From NCBI GenBank assembly GCA_027484605.1, contig JAIXSR010000005.1, positions 1-64,000 of the forward strand: DNA of 64,000 nt, read 5' to 3'. This document shows positions 51,704 through 60,363 of the stretch, piece after piece. This DNA is from Hyphomicrobiales bacterium (GTDB lineage Bacteria; Pseudomonadota; Alphaproteobacteria; Rhizobiales; Beijerinckiaceae). Position 1 is the first letter of the stretch. Each line of letters opens with the position of its first letter. Below the pieces are notes generated by a model. It was not told the DNA's origin, did no database searches, and was given only the letters and a program-made list of their open reading frames with translations. The translations under genes were made by a program, and so were the position numbers.

Positions 51704-52696
51704 TCACACCGGCAGGGCCAGCAGCCCGGCGCCGCCGCTTGCGGAGCCGAAGACCAGTCTCTTGCCATCCCTGTCCCAGCCGAGGGCGGTGATCGGCGTG
51801 CCGTCACCGCCGGCCCGGACCAGCAATTCCGAGGCATCGGTCAGGCGGACGAGCAGGACCCAGCCATCCTCGTAGCCGATGGCGAGAACCAGCGCGCGGG
51901 GATGGAACGCGACACAGGAGACCTTGGCCGGCCGGATCCCGCATTCCCGCGGGGCCTTGCCGGTCGGGCCTTCCTTGGCGAAGGGCCAGATGATGGCGGC
52001 CTCGGCCCCGGATGTCGCAAGCCAGAGCCCGTCATGCGACCAGGACCACGACCGCGTCTTCGAGGGATAGCCCGACATCCGCATATGGCCCTTGTCGGCC
52101 AGGCGCCAGCCATGGAGCTGGTTCTCCTGCATCGAGGTGATGAGGAAACGGTTGTCCGGCGAGAAGCTCGTGTCGAGATGCGGGCCCTTCCATGTCAACC
52201 GTTCGGGTTCGGCATCGGCGTTCGGGAACCAGAGCGTCACGCCGTCGATATGCGCGATGGCAAGCCGGTAGCCCTTGGGTGCGAAGGCGAGGCCCTGCGG
52301 CGTCGAGGGCGCGGTCAGCGTCTTCAGCCTCCCCTTGCTGTCGCGCACGGTGACATTCTTGCCGGCTGACCAGCCGGCGCTGCCATCGGGCCCGAGCGCA
52401 ACGGCGTCGATCCACCGGCCCTTCTCGTTGCCGATCTCGACAGACCGGCCATCGGGTCCGGTCTCGACAATCCGCCCGTCATCGCCGCCGGTGAGGAGCC
52501 GCGTGCCGGCATGGGCCGCGACAAGGATCGCATCGGCATGCGGGTGCATCGGCGCGGCTTCCCGGCCGAGCTGGATCCCGCCATCGGCGAAGACGAAGAG
52601 CATCTCGTCGCCCAGGAAGCCGGCCCTGAGCACGTAGCGGTCGAAGGCCAGTGTGGTGACGCGGTCGACCAGCGTCTGGACAGGCGCGGCAGGCAT
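51704..52696 (-). CDS. WD40-repeat protein of the zinc operon
   Basis: This 330-residue protein is built of degenerate WD40-like blades of about 40 residues (for example LTGGDDGRIVETG, LDTSFSPDNRFLITSM, WSWSHDGLWLATSG, VSCVAFHPRALVLAIGYEDG, TALGWDRDGKRLVFGSASG). It probably forms a seven-bladed propeller for protein contacts. It has no signal peptide, so it is cytoplasmic. It overlaps the CobW-family gene by one base (TGATG type) and is followed directly by the 88-residue protein, implying a joint function. No enzymatic residue is evident. Confidence 0.88.
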   Translation of the reverse strand: MPAAPVQTLVDRVTTLAFDRYVLRAGFLGDEMLFVFADGGIQLGREAAPMHPHADAILVAAHAGTRLLTGGDDGRIVETGPDGRSVEIGNEKGRWIDAVALGPDGSAGWSAGKNVTVRDSKGRLKTLTAPSTPQGLAFAPKGYRLAIAHIDGVTLWFPNADAEPERLTWKGPHLDTSFSPDNRFLITSMQENQLHGWRLADKGHMRMSGYPSKTRSWSWSHDGLWLATSGAEAAIIWPFAKEGPTGKAPRECGIRPAKVSCVAFHPRALVLAIGYEDGWVLLVRLTDASELLVRAGGDGTPITALGWDRDGKRLVFGSASGGAGLLALPV

Positions 52697-53763
52697 CAGG
52701 CGACGCAGGACAGGAAGCCCTGGCGCAGGGCATCTTCGTTGAGGTTCCGGCCGATGAAGACGATGCGCGAGACGCGCTTCTCGTCCGGCTTCCAGTCACG
52801 CTGCAGGTCGCCATCGAGGATCATGTGGACGCCCTGGAAGACGAAGCGCTTCGATTCCCTGGCAAAGGCGAGAATGCCCTTGGAGCGGAGGATGTTCGGC
52901 CCCTCGGTCTGCACCAGATCGTTGATCCAGGGCATGAATTTCTCGGGATCGACATCGCCGGGATGGGCGATCGAGACCGATTGCATCTCCTCGTCATGGT
53001 AATGTTTCAGCCCGCCATGGTGGTGGTGATGGCCATGATGGTGGTGATCATGCGTGCAATCCGGCCCGCATTCGCCGTCATGGTCATGATCATGATGGTG
53101 ATCATCCGCTTCGAGGAAGGCGGGCTCGATCTCGAGGATGCGTTCGAGATCGAAGGCGCCGCGATCGAGCACCTCGGCCAGCGGGATCTGGCATTTCTGC
53201 GTCTTGTGCAGGCGGGCATAGGGGTTGATGGCGCGGATCCGCGCCTCGACCTCGCGCAGCTCCGCCGGCGAGACCAGATCGGTCTTGTTGAGCAGGATCA
53301 CGTCGGCGAAGGCGATCTGGTTCTTGGCTTCCGGTGCATCCTTCAGCCGTGCGGCCAGCCATTTCGCATCCGCCACGGTGACGACGGCATCGAGCCGCGC
53401 CTTATCCCCGACATCCTGGTCGACGAAGAAGGTCTGCGCGACAGGGGCCGGGTCGGCGAGGCCGGTTGTCTCGACAATGATGGCGTCGAAGCGGCCTTTC
53501 CGCTTCATCAGGGTCTCGATGATGCGGATCAGATCGCCGCGCACGGTGCAGCAGATGCACCCGTTATTCATCTCGAAGACTTCCTCGTCGGCCCCGACGA
53601 CGAGGTCATTGTCGATGCCGATCTCGCCGAATTCGTTGACGATCACCGCATATTTCTTGCCATGCGGTTCCGAGAGGATCCGGTTGAGCAAGGTGGTCTT
53701 GCCGGCGCCGAGATAGCCCGTCAGGACCGTTACAGGGATCTTGTCCGTCATCGTGTTGCTCAT
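52696..53763 (-). CDS. CobW/COG0523-family GTPase, putative zinc metallochaperone
   Basis: This 355-residue G3E GTPase has the P-loop GYLGAGKTT at about 16-24, the metal motif CxCC (Cys69, Cys71, Cys72 in NNGCICCTV), [10 protein letters not shown] at about 98 and the base-binding NKTD at about 159. A His/Asp/Cys-rich insert at about 217-255 ([15 protein letters not shown] and [12 protein letters not shown]) should bind Zn2+. The C-terminal CobW domain covers about 265-350. Its place 80 bases after znuA points to zinc delivery rather than cobalamin synthesis. A second ATG 12 bases in (MTDKIP) is an alternative start. Confidence 0.93.
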
Positions 53764-53843: not shown

Positions 53844-54818
53844 TCATTCCGCCTTCAGGGCATCGAGCAGCGTCTTCGCGTTGTGACGCATCATCGCGAT
53901 GTAGGTCGGCGCGGGGCCTTTTTCATCGGACAGGGCATCAGAAAACAGCGTGCCGCCAACTCTCGCGCCGGTTTCCTTCGCGATCTGTTCGGCGATGCGC
54001 GGTGAGGTCATGTTCTCGAGGAAAACGGCCCGGACCTTCTTGTCCCGAATCAGGCGGATGACCCGGGCGACGTCCTTGGCCGACGGTTCGGCATCCGAGG
54101 ACATGCCCTGGACTGACTCGAAGGTGAAACCGAATTCGCGCGCGAAATAGTCGAACGCTGCGTGGCTGGTCATCGTGACGCGGCGCTCCCGCGGCAAGGT
54201 GGCGAAGGCGTTCTCGATCTCGGATTTCACAGCGGCCAGCTCGGCGAGATAGGCTTCGGCATTCTTTCGATAGGCCGGTTCGCCCGCAGGGTCAGCCTTG
54301 ATCAGACCATCGCGGATATTGACGACATAGACCTTGACGGCATCAATGGATTGCCAGGCATGCGGGTCGAGCCGGCCATGGCTGTGACCATGGTCATGTC
54401 CGTGCCCATGCCCATGGGCTTCCTTCTTCGTCTTCTCGATCGCGTTGATGCCCGTCGATGCGACGATCACCGGGATCTTGGCGCCTGCACTCTTGATCAG
54501 GCGTGGCATAAAGGTCTCCAGACCGAGGCCGTTCACGACTATCAGGCCAGCGTCCTTCACCTTCTTCGCATCGGCCGGGCTCGCCTGATAGACATGCGTG
54601 TCTCCGTTCGGACCGACCAGCGGGACAACATTGGCGCGCTCCTTTGCGACCTGCCGCGTCAGGTCCGCGAGGATGGAGAAGGATGTCACCACCTCCAGTG
54701 GTTTTGACGGAGCGGTCTGGGCCAGGGCGGCGGGCGCCAGCGCGAGGGCCATGGCGCCGGCCATCAGGCTGCGACGAGAGGTTATAACATTACGAAAGAG
54801 GGGCGGGAGGATATCCAT
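53844..54818 (-). CDS. znuA: Zinc ABC transporter, substrate-binding protein
   Basis: This 324-residue periplasmic protein captures Zn2+ for ZnuBC. A signal peptide (about 15-33, RRSLMAGAMALALAPAALA) precedes the cluster A-I fold. Likely ligands are a His in GDTHVYQASPAD, the His in RLDPHAWQS, a His in MTSHAAFDYFA and a late Asp/Glu. A His-rich loop (GHGHGHDHGHSHG, about 136-148) is diagnostic of zinc rather than manganese. The start at 54818 has GGAG nine bases upstream; a Zur-like sequence then falls inside codons 9-13. An alternative ATG at 54764 lacks a ribosome site. Confidence 0.94.
   Translation of the reverse strand: MDILPPLFRNVITSRRSLMAGAMALALAPAALAQTAPSKPLEVVTSFSILADLTRQVAKERANVVPLVGPNGDTHVYQASPADAKKVKDAGLIVVNGLGLETFMPRLIKSAGAKIPVIVASTGINAIEKTKKEAHGHGHGHDHGHSHGRLDPHAWQSIDAVKVYVVNIRDGLIKADPAGEPAYRKNAEAYLAELAAVKSEIENAFATLPRERRVTMTSHAAFDYFAREFGFTFESVQGMSSDAEPSAKDVARVIRLIRDKKVRAVFLENMTSPRIAEQIAKETGARVGGTLFSDALSDEKGPAPTYIAMMRHNAKTLLDALKAE
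54781..54793 (-). promoter_or_regulatory. Second Zur-like sequence at the start of znuA
   Basis: GTTATAACATTAC matches the perfect palindrome at 56751-56763 in 11 of 13 positions. It lies within the first codons of znuA as annotated and forces codons such as AAT, GTT and ATA that are uncommon in this GC-rich DNA. It may be an internal Zur site. Confidence 0.5.
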
Positions 54819-54836: not shown

Positions 54837-55703
54837 TCAGGCTTCGAGATGGCGTTGGGGGAAATAGCGCCGCACGATTCCGTGCGGGCCAAGGGCGAGC
54901 GAGGCGCCGTAGATCAGGCCGGCGACAAGGATGATGGCGGGCCCGGAGGCCATGCCGAGATGATAGGAGGCGAGAAGCCCGGTCACATTGGCGAGGATGG
55001 CCAGCGGCACGGCGATGGCGATCATGGACGAGACATCATCGGTCCAGAGACGTGCCGAGCCGGCGGGGAGCATCATGATGCCCACGACGAGCAGCGTCCC
55101 GAGCGCGTGGAACCCGGCGACAAGGTTCAGCACGACAAAGGTCAGGAAGCCGAAATGGAAGACCCATCCGAACCGGGTGACGCCGGCGGCGAAGCCGGGA
55201 TCGAGGCATTCCATCACCACGCCGCGATAGCCCAGGGCCAGTGCCAGCAGGGTTGCCGAGGCAACCGCGACGATGAGGACAAGGGTCGGATCGTCCAGCG
55301 CGAGGATCGAGCCGAAGAGCAGGGCCAGCAGGTCGAGATTGGAGCGGCTGGCCGAGATGAGGGTGACGCCGAGGGCCAGCGAGACGAGATAGAAGGCCGC
55401 GAGAGCCATGTCTTCCTTGACGAGGGTGGTCCGCGATACGAAGCCCGAGGCGATGGCGACACCGAAGCCGGCGATCAGCCCGCCGAGGGTCATGTAGCCG
55501 AGCGACAGGCCGCCGATCAGGAAGCCCAATGCGGCGCCGGGCAGGATGGCATGGGCCATGGCATCGCCGATCAGGCTCATGCGGCGCAGCATCAGGAACA
55601 CGCCGATCGGCGCGGCCGCGAACGAGATCGCCAGCCCGCCGACCAGCGCGCGTCGCATGAAGGGGAATTCGACGAAGGGCGCGACGAGGAGATCGTAGAC
55701 CAT
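54837..55703 (-). CDS. znuB: Zinc ABC transporter, permease
   Basis: This 288-residue inner-membrane protein has eight or nine hydrophobic helices and family landmarks such as MLRRMSLIGDAMAHAILPGA at about 38-57, SRTTLVKEDMALAAFY and TLLVVGIMMLPAGSARLWTDD at about 207-227. It starts one base after the znuC stop and ends 18 bases before znuA, so it is part of one transcript. It transports the metal delivered by ZnuA, powered by ZnuC. Confidence 0.94.
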   Translation of the reverse strand: MVYDLLVAPFVEFPFMRRALVGGLAISFAAAPIGVFLMLRRMSLIGDAMAHAILPGAALGFLIGGLSLGYMTLGGLIAGFGVAIASGFVSRTTLVKEDMALAAFYLVSLALGVTLISASRSNLDLLALLFGSILALDDPTLVLIVAVASATLLALALGYRGVVMECLDPGFAAGVTRFGWVFHFGFLTFVVLNLVAGFHALGTLLVVGIMMLPAGSARLWTDDVSSMIAIAVPLAILANVTGLLASYHLGMASGPAIILVAGLIYGASLALGPHGIVRRYFPQRHLEA

Positions 55704-55704
55704 G

Positions 55705-56439
55705 TCAGGCCGCCCGGTGGCATTCGGCGGCCCGGCGGTCGAAGGCTTCCGCCATCTGCCGCGCGGTTTCGAGCCGGTCGGTCGTCAGCACCCCGGATGT
55801 CGCGCCCCAGCCGAGCGGATCGCGGGCGAGGAGCAGGGTCTGCGGGAAATGTCGCCGGACGAGTTCGAGATCATGCAGGACGGCGAGGATGGTCCTGCCC
55901 TCGCTGTGCCAGCGCGCGACGATCTCCAGAAGGTCGTCGATGGTGCGCTGGTCGATGGCGGTGAACGGCTCGTCGAGCAGGATGAGCGGGGCATCCTGCA
56001 ACATCAGCCGTGCGAAGAGCAGGCGCTGCAGCTGGCCACCCGACAGCGTGCGGATGGAACGGCGCTCGAAACCCGACAGACCGACCAGGCCAATGGCCTC
56101 GAGCGCGCGATCCCGCTCGGTGCGCGAGATCCGGCCGAACATCCCGCGCCGGCCGCACAGGCCGGTCAGGGCGAGATCGAAGACCGTCACCGGGAAATCA
56201 CGGTTGAGATCGCCGATCTGCGGCATGTAGGCCATATGCGGGAAGGTGTTGACGATCCGCCCTGCCAGCGGGGCGAGGCGCCCGGCAATGCCTTTCAGGA
56301 GGGTCGACTTGCCGCCGCCATTCGGCCCGACAATCGCCAGCAGCGTGCCCGGCTCGATCCGTCCGTCGAGATGGTGGACGGCGGGGTGCCGGTCATAGCC
56401 GAGCGTCAGGTCCTCGAAGGCCAGGATCGGATCAGACAT
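55705..56439 (-). CDS. znuC: Zinc ABC transporter, ATP-binding protein
   Basis: This 244-residue ATPase has Walker A GPNGGGKST at about 38-46, signature LSGGQLQRLLFARL at about 134-147, Walker B LILLDEPF at about 153-160 and a switch His in LAVLHDLELV. It overlaps the end of the small His-rich protein gene by 8 bases, which implies coupled translation from the first gene of the operon. Confidence 0.95.
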   Translation of the reverse strand: MSDPILAFEDLTLGYDRHPAVHHLDGRIEPGTLLAIVGPNGGGKSTLLKGIAGRLAPLAGRIVNTFPHMAYMPQIGDLNRDFPVTVFDLALTGLCGRRGMFGRISRTERDRALEAIGLVGLSGFERRSIRTLSGGQLQRLLFARLMLQDAPLILLDEPFTAIDQRTIDDLLEIVARWHSEGRTILAVLHDLELVRRHFPQTLLLARDPLGWGATSGVLTTDRLETARQMAEAFDRRAAECHRAA

Positions 56440-56743
56440 CGCGCATCGCCCAGAAGGCCAGCGCCCAGAGCAGGGCGACCAGCGGCAGGGCCAGCAGCAG
56501 GCGCTGGCCGGCGGACAAGGCCATCAGCGAGAGGCGCGGCGGATCGGCCCGCTCCGTGCGCAGGGCCGGAAGGGTGGCATGGTCATGCCGGTGGCCGGCA
56601 TGGTCATGTCCGTGGTGATGGTCATGCGCATGAGGATGCCCGTGTCCGGGGCCATGGTCATGCCCGTGGGCATGCCCCGATGCCGGAGCATGGGCAGGAA
56701 CGGGGGCGACGGCGCGCGGCAGGAGGGATGTCGGTTCCGACAT
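56432..56743 (-). CDS. His-rich small membrane protein, first gene of the zinc operon
   Basis: This 103-residue protein has no name I know. After a short start (MSEPTSLLPRAVAP) comes a segment of alternating His with Gly, Asp and Ala (about residues 18-53, for example HAHGHDHGPGHGHPHAHDHH) with about 18 histidines. A short linker and one C-terminal hydrophobic helix (about 79-98, LLLALPLVALLWALAFW) follow. It would be a tail-anchored cytoplasmic zinc-binding protein, or have the opposite topology. It overlaps znuC by 8 bases, and the Zur-like palindrome lies only 7 bases before its ATG. A role as zinc buffer or donor at the transporter is inferred. Confidence 0.85.
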   Translation of the reverse strand: MSEPTSLLPRAVAPVPAHAPASGHAHGHDHGPGHGHPHAHDHHHGHDHAGHRHDHATLPALRTERADPPRLSLMALSAGQRLLLALPLVALLWALAFWAMRDV

Positions 56744-56750
56744 GGCCAGC

Positions 56751-56779
56751 GTTATAATATAACAGGCCGGCCGGGGCAA
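56751..56779 (-). promoter_or_regulatory. Zur-like operator overlapping the zinc operon promoter
   Basis: The perfect palindrome GTTATAATATAAC spans 56751-56763 and matches the TATAAT-containing Zur boxes of alphaproteobacteria. On the minus strand its last half reads TATAAC, 17 bases after TTGCCC (56774-56779), making a plausible -10/-35 pair. Transcription would start at or within a base or two of the ATG at 56743, so the mRNA may be leaderless. Binding of Zur with zinc would block the -10 element. Confidence 0.8.
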
Positions 56780-56792
56780 CCGCTTCGCGCGG

Positions 56793-57026
56793 TTATTCGT
56801 AGATCGGTTCCGCCTTGATGGCAGCCTTGACGAAACGCCAGCAGAGATAGATGCCCAGGGCCAGCGAGATCGCGATGAGGGCCATCGTCACTTCCTCGCC
56901 CCAGCCGGTCAGGCCGCCAACTGCCCAGCCCAGCGCAAGGGCAGCCGCCAGGATCTCGGTGCCGACGAGGATCGTCGCGCAGATCACGGTCAACGCGTTC
57001 TGGCGGTTGAGCGATTTTCCGGCCAT
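56793..57026 (-). CDS. Small two-helix membrane protein
   Basis: This 77-residue protein has two hydrophobic helices (about 9-31 and 43-65) and ends FVKAAIKAEPIYE. I do not recognise it. The ATG at 57026 has AGGAAAAG upstream; a TTG further up would add 20 residues. It lies upstream of the zinc operon promoter on the same strand and probably has its own promoter in the gap to the gamma-glutamyltransferase gene. Confidence 0.7.
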   Translation of the reverse strand: MAGKSLNRQNALTVICATILVGTEILAAALALGWAVGGLTGWGEEVTMALIAISLALGIYLCWRFVKAAIKAEPIYE

Positions 57027-57127
57027 CGGCTTTTCCTTGTCCAAGACGTCTTTCCTGATGGTGGGGAGCGGTATAGCTTTTGGCAACCCGGCGCAATCGC
57101 CGATCCCTCATTTTCTGCAGGACCTCC

Positions 57128-58723: not shown

Positions 58724-59722
58724 TCAGGTTCCCGCGGCCATCAGGCCCCGGACCAGCAGGAAACCCAAAGCGGCAAGGCCGAGGCCGGCCAGCATCTCGA
58801 GGATGAGGCCGAGCCGTGCCCAGCCTCTGCCGCCGCGTGAGATGAGGTTCAGCGCCAGCAGCTTCGCCTTGACCGCGAGCAGGGCGAAAAGGCTGGTACC
58901 TAGCGCCGTGCCGATCGCCATCACGATCACCGAGAGGGCGCCGGCAAGGAACAGCCCTTTCGACAGGGCGAAGACCAGCAGGATGATCGCCCCGGTGCAG
59001 GGCCGGATTCCCGCGCCGATGGCCATCAGGGCGAGGTCGCGGCGGGAGGCTGCGACAAGCTGGCGCGGATCGCCGCCATGCTGGTGGCCGCAGAGCGGAT
59101 CGGCGCAGGCGGGGTCGTGGGTGAAGCCGGCGAACAGGAGCCGGGCCTTGCGCCAGGCCAGCCAGAGGCCCATCAGCGCGATCAGCGTGAACCCGCCCTT
59201 TTCGATCCAGGCGATGCTGGCATTCATGGTGCGGGCCGTACCGCCGGCGATGCCGGCGACGATGCCGACAATGCCGAGGGCGATGATCGCCTGCACCGCC
59301 GCTGCCGCGAAGGCCAGGCCGATGCCGCGCTTCAGCGCCCGCTCGTTGGCGAGCAGGTAGGAGGCGATCACCGCCTTGCCATGGCCGGGGCCCACCGCAT
59401 GGAGCACGCCATAGGCGAAGGCAAGGCCGAGCAGGGTGGCGAGGGCGGCCGGGCTGGTTTCGACCGCGCCGATGGCGGCCGTCAGCGCCTTGTGGAAGGC
59501 GGCCTGCTGGCTCAGCAGCCAGGCGCCGAGGCCGGAGGCGGCTTCTGCCGGTGGCGCGGGCGGCCCGGCGCCGAAAGGCGAGCGGGTCTGCGCGAGGGCG
59601 GGAGCTGCGGCGAGCAGCGAAGCGAATGCCGCAAGAGGGCGGCTTCCGGGCAGCGCGCGACGGCCATGGAGAGCCTGTCTCTGCATCCCTTGCAGGAAAT
59701 ACATCACGTGCAGGAAATACAT
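58724..59722 (-). CDS. NicO/RcnA-family nickel-cobalt (metal) transporter
   Basis: This 332-residue membrane protein carries the NicO signature VLHAVGPGHGKAVIASYLL at about 107-125 and GAGIRPCTGAIILLVFALSKG at about 235-255. It has a signal-like N-terminus (LPGSRPLAAFASLLAAAPALA), six or seven membrane helices and a His/Cys-containing loop (CADPLCGHQHGGD). I place the start at the ATG at 59722 because it overlaps the stop of the DUF1007 gene (TGATG); ATGs at 59704 and 59686 are alternatives, and none has a strong ribosome site. The metal could be Ni, Co or, given the zinc operon nearby, another cation. Confidence 0.85.
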   Translation of the reverse strand: MYFLHVMYFLQGMQRQALHGRRALPGSRPLAAFASLLAAAPALAQTRSPFGAGPPAPPAEAASGLGAWLLSQQAAFHKALTAAIGAVETSPAALATLLGLAFAYGVLHAVGPGHGKAVIASYLLANERALKRGIGLAFAAAAVQAIIALGIVGIVAGIAGGTARTMNASIAWIEKGGFTLIALMGLWLAWRKARLLFAGFTHDPACADPLCGHQHGGDPRQLVAASRRDLALMAIGAGIRPCTGAIILLVFALSKGLFLAGALSVIVMAIGTALGTSLFALLAVKAKLLALNLISRGGRGWARLGLILEMLAGLGLAALGFLLVRGLMAAGT

Positions 59723-59733
59723 CACTTGCAGGA
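59691..59733. repeat. 18-bp tandem repeat at the NicO start
   Basis: Two 18-bp units (TGCAGGAAATACATCACG and the same with a final T), plus 7 bases of a third, span the stop of the DUF1007 gene and the first codons of the NicO gene. The repeat duplicates six codons (MYFLHV then MYFLQG) and gives several in-frame ATGs. Confidence 0.85.
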
Positions 59734-60363
59734 GAACCGGACCGGGATGGCCCAATCCGGATTGGCATTGGGCCCCATGCTCTGGAAGAAGCCCTCGCCC
59801 ATCTGCGACAGGCGCGCCATCACGCCGGGATTGGGCGGGCTGACCTTGGCTTCGCAGGGTTTCGCCGTTCCCTCGACCGTGACGGGCGTGCCTTCCTGGA
59901 AATTGAAGGCGACGAAAAAGGTCGGGTCATAGACCTCGAGCCGGGCCTCGGCGAGGCTGGGCCTGGTGCCATCGACGGGCAGGGTGAAATGCAGCGTCAG
60001 CGCCTTGCCGTCATGGCTGAGGTAATAGTCGCTCACCTGCCCGAAACGGGTGCGGGCCCGGCCCTGTTTCAGGAAGCTGAAATACTCGTATTCGTTGAGC
60101 GATTCGACATTGACCTGCGCCAGTTCGGCCAGTTCCTCGCGGTCGAGCTTGCCATCCTTGTTCTTGTCGAGGCCGGTAGTCGAATAGGCGGAGAAGGCCT
60201 CGTCGAAGGTCCAGGCATGGCGAAGGGCCGTGATGGCGCCGCCGGCATCGGCCACAACCACCGTCCGCACGCTCACCAGCACATGCGGATGGGCCGCAGC
60301 GGGCATCGTGGCGCCGGCCAGCGCGCAGGCGGTGCAGAACAGAATGGCCGGTAACCGCAACAT
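59722..60363 (-). CDS. DUF1007-family periplasmic protein with EF-hand loop
   Basis: This 213-residue exported protein has a signal peptide (about 1-24, cleavage after AAA before HPHVLV). It contains the HPHV start typical of DUF1007 proteins, a canonical 12-residue EF-hand loop DKNKDGKLDREE at about residues 66-77, and paired Cys near the C-terminus (KPCEAK, FSCK). DUF1007 proteins regularly accompany NicO-type transporters and probably help in metal capture or sensing. The NicO gene is translationally coupled downstream. Confidence 0.88.
   Translation of the reverse strand: MLRLPAILFCTACALAGATMPAAAHPHVLVSVRTVVVADAGGAITALRHAWTFDEAFSAYSTTGLDKNKDGKLDREELAELAQVNVESLNEYEYFSFLKQGRARTRFGQVSDYYLSHDGKALTLHFTLPVDGTRPSLAEARLEVYDPTFFVAFNFQEGTPVTVEGTAKPCEAKVSPPNPGVMARLSQMGEGFFQSMGPNANPDWAIPVRFSCK

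Follow-up and report, generated by a model that had tools for sequence, protein, structure and literature searches.

A tail-anchored single-helix membrane protein as a probable subunit of AztAB-type zinc importers

The closest described systems to the importer considered here are AztABCD of Paracoccus denitrificans and ZniCBA of Klebsiella pneumoniae and Rhizobium leguminosarum, which are zinc-responsive in those species and share with our locus the type of permease and ATPase and a Zur-type box (PMC5387054, PMC10797113, PMC12183173). In the available portions of these papers the importers are treated as an ATPase, a permease and a binding protein with no small membrane subunit, P. denitrificans having AztD instead, and the K. 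pneumoniae genes are described as a unidirectional zniCBA locus without a small open reading frame (ORF) (PMC10797113). Outside zinc import, AcrZ, MgtS, MgtU, MntS, KdpF, CydX and LucB are small one-helix proteins tied to a membrane transporter or enzyme; KdpF and CydX are small subunits and LucB is part of a mycobacterial lipid ABC importer, and none of the seven belongs to a zinc importer in the accessible portions of the two sources (PMC10710835, PMC10903887). The terms 'zinc' and 'ABC transporter' are absent from the accessible portion of the second, a small-membrane-protein method paper. Two other loci were set aside as comparisons: Caulobacter znuGHI, annotated as ABC-2 type in the part of the source consulted (PMC4176598), and Cupriavidus ZniCBA, a namesake that the part consulted describes as an efflux system (PMC11647595).

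We analyzed a 64,000-nucleotide stretch of a Hyphomicrobiales genome (the window), in which a minus-strand cluster is headed by a small gene (56432..56743; ATG at 56743, stop codon at 56434-56432) encoding 103 amino acids. Genes follow on the same strand for an AztA-like ATPase (55705..56439), an AztB-like permease (54837..55703), an AztC-like zinc-binding protein with its own His-rich loop (53844..54818), a CobW-type (COG0523) GTPase with a His-rich loop (52696..53763) and a WD40-repeat protein (51704..52696), the last two being kept in the cluster. According to the accessible part of the source, a COG0523 GTPase subfamily clustering with WD40 genes and znuABC has already been described (PMC2770081). 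A sequence-only reading of this DNA had proposed that the small frame is a real gene of a zinc uptake operon, with about 18 histidines, a single C-terminal membrane helix, an 8-base overlap with the ATPase gene and a Zur-like palindrome before its ATG. The frame itself was confirmed by its orthologues (see below), and the ATPase ORF starts at 56439, giving exactly that overlap (56432-56439). The protein does carry a His-rich tail, with a count of 17 histidines, all within residues 18–55 (56579..56692). AlphaFold2, run with 33 sequences, likewise agreed with the proposal, predicting a single helix at residues 73–102 (56438..56527; block mean pLDDT 84–97) and no structure N-terminal of residue 73.

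Being small, with one predicted membrane helix and encoded together with its putative partner, the window protein is of the KdpF and AcrZ kind, although we found no sequence link to any of the seven proteins named above. None of those seven is known to carry a cytosolic His tail. A scan of 34 family members against Pfam and NCBIfam gave no convincing match, and the window protein had no Pfam match; the best scores, with cut-offs compared only for the first member, were E 0.0076 for Pfam Zip (seen in 4 of 34) and E 0.0011 for NCBIfam PRK10019 (seen in 2 of 34), and both are read as matches to the His stretch. CbtB, the small one-helix partner of the cobalt transporter CbtA, also contains histidines, but its His tail lies at the opposite end from that of the window protein. 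ZrgA and ZinT are likewise His-rich and serve zinc import, but they are soluble periplasmic proteins, and the ZrgA model matches only the His stretch of the small protein (E 0.26, 11.7 bits versus a cut-off of 27.4).

The Zur-like palindrome is exact. This putative operator, TGTTATATTATAACG (56750-56764, minus strand), ends 6 nt upstream of the ATG, so that a Zur-type site stands before the first gene as in a Zur regulon; it is the sole match to TGTTATAWTATAACR within the window, and none of 100 shuffles has one. A promoter-like element, TTGCCC-17 nt-TATAAC (56751..56779, minus strand), has its TATAAC within the operator and 7 nt upstream of the ATG, and would give a near-leaderless message starting at or beside the ATG. 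A consensus promoter scan did not flag it; TTG at the -35-like offset, 17 nt from TATAAC, recurs in 22 of 74 short-leader loci, mostly from the window's genus. These 74 belong to a set of 170 proteins with a Zur-type box (at most 2 mismatches) and have it 3–10 nt before the start codon. In none of them do the 14 nt before the start contain a Shine-Dalgarno-like 4-mer, a result that is no more than suggestive, since the short spacing leaves little room; such a 4-mer occurs in 37 of 88 proteins with leaders of at least 15 nt.

The same reading had taken the importer for ZnuCBA, which the family models do not support. The best NCBIfam models were AztA (202.3 bits, cut-off 220), AztB (246.9, cut-off 280) and AztC (302.2, cut-off 350), while ZnuB (58.1, cut-off 284) and ZnuA (88.5, cut-off 268) fell well short of theirs. 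The transporter genes thus resemble AztABC more than ZnuABC in sequence, and because the Azt models score best yet below every cut-off we call the importer Azt-like only. At E 1e-40 the window's genome gave no AztD match. Among solved permeases, the sequence matches were ZnuB (9oko) and a manganese permease (7kyo, 7kyp) that we take to be PsaC.

Occurrence among AztAB-type loci

Within the genus, all 16 other genomes gave a match to the small protein. In a search of relatives the permease was present in 90 of 150 genomes, and in the 89 other loci that we read a short ORF with one C-terminal helix preceded nearly every ATPase gene, just where the sequence-only reading had proposed to look for homologues. 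A His-rich query mixed orthologues with unrelated His-rich proteins, and we therefore relied on gene context together with a profile (HMM) of the helix region alone, built from the relatives' loci, with a score of at least 10 bits counted as presence. Applied to another 96 loci, taken from named genomes and plasmids, the profile found the ORF in 82 of the 90 holding the ATPase start, and in 77 of 85 unique named loci after removal of training-set genomes; 80 of the named loci were the top-ranked ones among at least 562, which over-represents near relatives.

Two wider samples were counted over unique loci with usable upstream DNA. Class-wide, 96 of 337 genomes yielded the permease, and the 70 loci read gave the ORF in 55 of 63 usable ones, with 32 of the 102 listed places, mostly weaker, left out. 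The phylum-wide sample (permease in 79 of 319 genomes, 64 new loci read) gave 45 of 58, leaving out G625, G645, G648 and G731, three of which are congeners of ORF-lacking genomes. Loci fetched from genomes outside the class had the ORF in 27 of 34 cases. Across Pseudomonadota as a whole, 264 of 299 unique AztAB-type loci have the ORF immediately ahead of the ATPase gene with a score of at least 10 bits; these loci hold 43,124 ORFs in all, and the profile matched 4 that lie in other places. The earlier statement that the importer is complete without such a subunit may thus hold for ZnuABC but does not fit the AztAB type.

Among the 35 misses, eight are diverged copies by eye (L149, L257, L285, L290, L309, L313, L314 and L316); they stay misses in the 264 of 299 but are treated as present in the comparison of 272 permeases below, from which L323 was dropped for gaps. 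The remaining 27 loci lack the small protein even by eye, which indicates that some AztAB importers work without it. One locus (L303) has an ORF with the helix motif (449-655 in operon-strand orientation, 20.9 bits) roughly 1 kb upstream of the ATPase gene, possibly a displaced copy. One Bradyrhizobium homologue, searched against plasmid records with the low-complexity filter on, gave no match. On Salipiger, Neorhizobium and Sinorhizobium plasmids (L320, L321 and L322), AztD genes occur by themselves, and aztABC is absent from the surrounding 5 kb.

Where both the small protein and a box are present (171 loci), the distance from the start of the box to the ATPase gene is at least 121 nt; among 11 boxed loci scored as lacking the protein, seven have the box at 50–101 nt and four hold diverged copies. 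For R. leguminosarum, the available text places the Zur motif 153 bp before zniC (PMC12183173), and two Rhizobium relatives that carry the ORF have their best box-like site (3 mismatches) starting 139–145 nt upstream of the ATPase gene. For P. denitrificans, the available text places the motif 30–44 bp before aztA (PMC5387054), which leaves no room for a small ORF, and the three Paracoccus loci that we read all lack it.

The ORF is also present at the zni locus itself. In records of Klebsiella pneumoniae (35 residues) and Enterobacter hormaechei (33 residues), an ORF of the same kind, without histidines, lies between the Zur-type box and the zni ATPase gene, and the locus sits between mltB and pncC as in the published one. 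Both ORFs are absent from the listed annotation, taken from the PLSDB gene table, which is incomplete; of seven PLSDB records with a gene table and the ORF, two (Comamonas and Skermanella) list it, as 'hypothetical protein'. No description of the small protein was found in open-access text, a corpus that misses most subscription journals. In L388 (Klebsiella pneumoniae CP125156.1, 2328-2974), the alignment of the zni ATPase gene is split into two pieces, and the record does not list the gene.

Helix, tail and coevolution with AztB

Two residues of the window helix, Arg81 and Trp93, are nearly invariant in the family. Conservation within the training set is partly by construction, and we therefore quote it for proteins outside the training loci, where Arg is kept in 178 of 179 and Trp in 173 of 179, although these too were chosen by a profile favoring both residues. 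The first detection, by a regular expression requiring R and W, missed L067 (W to G), which was recovered later. Over the 264 relatives, length ranges from 28 to 133 residues (median 54) and histidines number at least five in 111 proteins, two to four in 39 and at most one in 114, both lengths and tail counts depending on start codons that were chosen from box and ATG positions. The His-rich state requires at least 26 changes on the AztB tree. Since His content varies while the helix is kept, the helix defines the family and the tail is an elaboration, presumably zinc-binding and repeatedly gained or lost.

Both parts of the protein are under purifying selection, with pN/pS in three sets of close relatives of 0.22, 0.34 and 0.26 for the helix and 0.40, 0.41 and 0.15 for the tail; three further sets of two sequences each were too small for use. 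A chance ORF was rejected on this selection together with conservation at the same place in relatives. Flanking charges bear on topology: Lys and Arg total 550 in the 15 residues before the hydrophobic stretch and 74 after it, with more before than after in 255 of 264 proteins, equal numbers in 8 and fewer in 1, and a median of 1 residue follows the stretch. The protein is therefore most likely C-terminally anchored, with its tail in the cytosol.

We then examined coevolution by a mean-field coupling analysis (own script) of 264 paired small-protein and AztB sequences, with an effective number of about 150. The top pair joins helix column 36 (A96 in the window) to AztB residue 145 (V; 55269-55271, minus strand) at z 20–21, above the best pair inside AztB (z 9.1), and it came first in six of six half-samples. 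Null maxima were 5.1–6.5 for random re-pairing (five runs) and 5.0–6.5 for re-pairing among near relatives (three runs), and the small protein showed only noise-level coupling with AztA (maximum z 6.3) and AztC (5.6). The commonest pairs at 36-145 compensate in size (V-A in 140 of 264, I-G in 44, A-V in 12, T-V in 12 and F-C in 10), with a volume correlation of -0.55. On a tree built without AztB columns 21, 25, 145 and 149, the association of AztB G with a large partner held in 8.8 to 0.0 of 10 independent pairs (median p 0.004) and that of any change in 9.3 to 0.0 of 13 (median p 0.004); AztB V with a small partner gave 3.4 to 0.0 of 7 (p 0.25), and eight control columns gave median p values of 0.375–1.

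Three weaker pairs were also considered. Pair 29-149 (V89 with S149; 55257-55259, minus strand) has z 7.6, which barely exceeds the null, and in one half-sample it dropped to rank 168, while 35-21 (L95 with V21, z 6.1) and 32-25 (L92 with A25, z 4.4) lie within the null. All four pairs nevertheless fit one geometry, in which the small helix, running from inside to outside, is antiparallel to AztB helices 14–39 and 138–157, whose direction was deduced from flanking charges. A separate contrast points to residue 149, which is S or T in 258 of 272 permeases with the small protein versus 3 of 26 without, making it the best separator of the two groups once three gap-dominated end columns are left out; in the same contrast, out of 288 ranks, AztB 21 is 7th, 25 is 14th and 145 is 71st. 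On the tree this contrast gives 3.1 to 0.0 (p 0.25) for 149 and 1.2 to 0.4 for 25, and it cannot reach significance there because only four independent pairs support it. The coupling data suggest that the small helix directly contacts the permease, with one residue pair dominating.

Proposed role and rival explanations

We consider it probable, at roughly 70%, that the small gene encodes a dedicated single-helix, tail-anchored subunit of the AztAB-type zinc ABC importer. A sub-case, which present data do not separate from a subunit acting in transport, is a stability factor that protects or assembles the permease and takes no part in transport, like guards of metal transporters against proteolysis. 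It would share its anatomy with the small modulators MgtS, MgtU, AcrZ and others in the accessible part of the source (PMC10710835), and the predicted helix contact with AztB fits it too; we hold this narrower version to be possible, if doubtful. The sequence-only reading had put the histidines first, proposing a membrane-tethered zinc buffer or donor whose tail works while the helix only anchors. Its membrane tether and inner-face position agree with the predicted topology, and it draws on the 17 histidines of a tail predicted on the inner face, with the operon's CobW-type GTPase and binding protein also His-rich, on the 111 relatives with at least five histidines and on selection acting on the tail (pN/pS 0.15–0.41). 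The tail as the core of the function fares worse, since 114 of 264 relatives keep the helix with no more than one histidine and a helix that only anchors would have no need to coevolve with AztB 145, so that we regard a buffer or donor first of all as unlikely. The variant in which the protein donates zinc on the outer face to the binding protein does not fit the tail-in topology.

Translation of the small gene might alternatively serve only to feed ribosomes into the overlapping ATPase gene, the peptide being dispensable. A start close to the box and the frequency of short overlaps or gaps with the ATPase start are what such a leader would show, but conservation of single residues across the phylum, pN/pS well under 1 and coevolution with AztB make it highly improbable. 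Replacement of the periplasmic zinc chaperone AztD drew on a pattern that at first looked near-absolute, with the small ORF in 1 of 12 loci with AztD versus 263 of 287 without. The AztD loci are few and related, however; Loktanella L197 has both genes, and 16 of the 27 loci without the small protein have no AztD nearby either, AztD being absent from the genomes of those searched. We therefore do not argue function from this exclusion, and with a tail predicted on the inner face the replacement is scarcely credible.

For a dedicated subunit of the importer, the order of events might be as follows. On zinc shortage Zur would leave the operator, and the small protein would be made first, here perhaps from a near-leaderless message, with translation running on into the overlapping ATPase gene. 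The small helix would lie antiparallel against AztB helix 138–157 (A96/V145, V89/S149), as coevolution suggests, and perhaps also against helix 14–39 (L95/V21, L92/A25); this contact and the inner-face tail have good support from couplings and charges. The small protein might then stabilize or tune the permease. Where the tail is His-rich, it could conceivably catch Zn2+ as it exits the pore at the inner face and buffer it or deliver it to a partner such as the operon's His-rich CobW-type GTPase, the hand-over being the least secure step; for the His-rich tail and cobW the counts are 45 of 48 versus 18 of 39, a difference that is not significant on the tree. More speculatively, Azt/Zni-type importers of Pseudomonadota may be four-part machines, with the tail-anchored helix in a groove between two AztB helices and an N-terminal tail repeatedly turned into a His-rich zinc sensor or relay, giving feedback on uptake or channelling from pore to CobW rather than release. 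We offer this extension tentatively.

Where the published accounts, in the portions available, count three components, the small protein may usually be a fourth. If most of the subfamily does have a one-helix fourth part, any reconstitution or structure lacking it is incomplete, and the small gene may have been cut through in promoter fusions or deletions that begin at zniC or aztA. The fate of zinc leaving the importer would become testable, as many copies put ten or more histidines there, and the covarying residue pairs provide ready mutational tests.

Flanking genes

Just upstream of the small gene, between the zinc operon and a gamma-glutamyltransferase gene, lies another short membrane-protein-like ORF (56793-57035, minus strand), which has no family match and keeps its position in genus relatives. 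A second, weaker Zur-type palindrome (54781-54793, 2 mismatches) falls within the binding-protein gene, in its 5' part. Adjoining the zinc operon, in the window and also in genus relatives, are genes for a NicO-type metal transporter and a DUF1007 protein (58724-60363, minus strand), presumably a ZevAB-like pair. DUF1007 genes are likewise found beside azt operons in Paracoccus and Thioclava.
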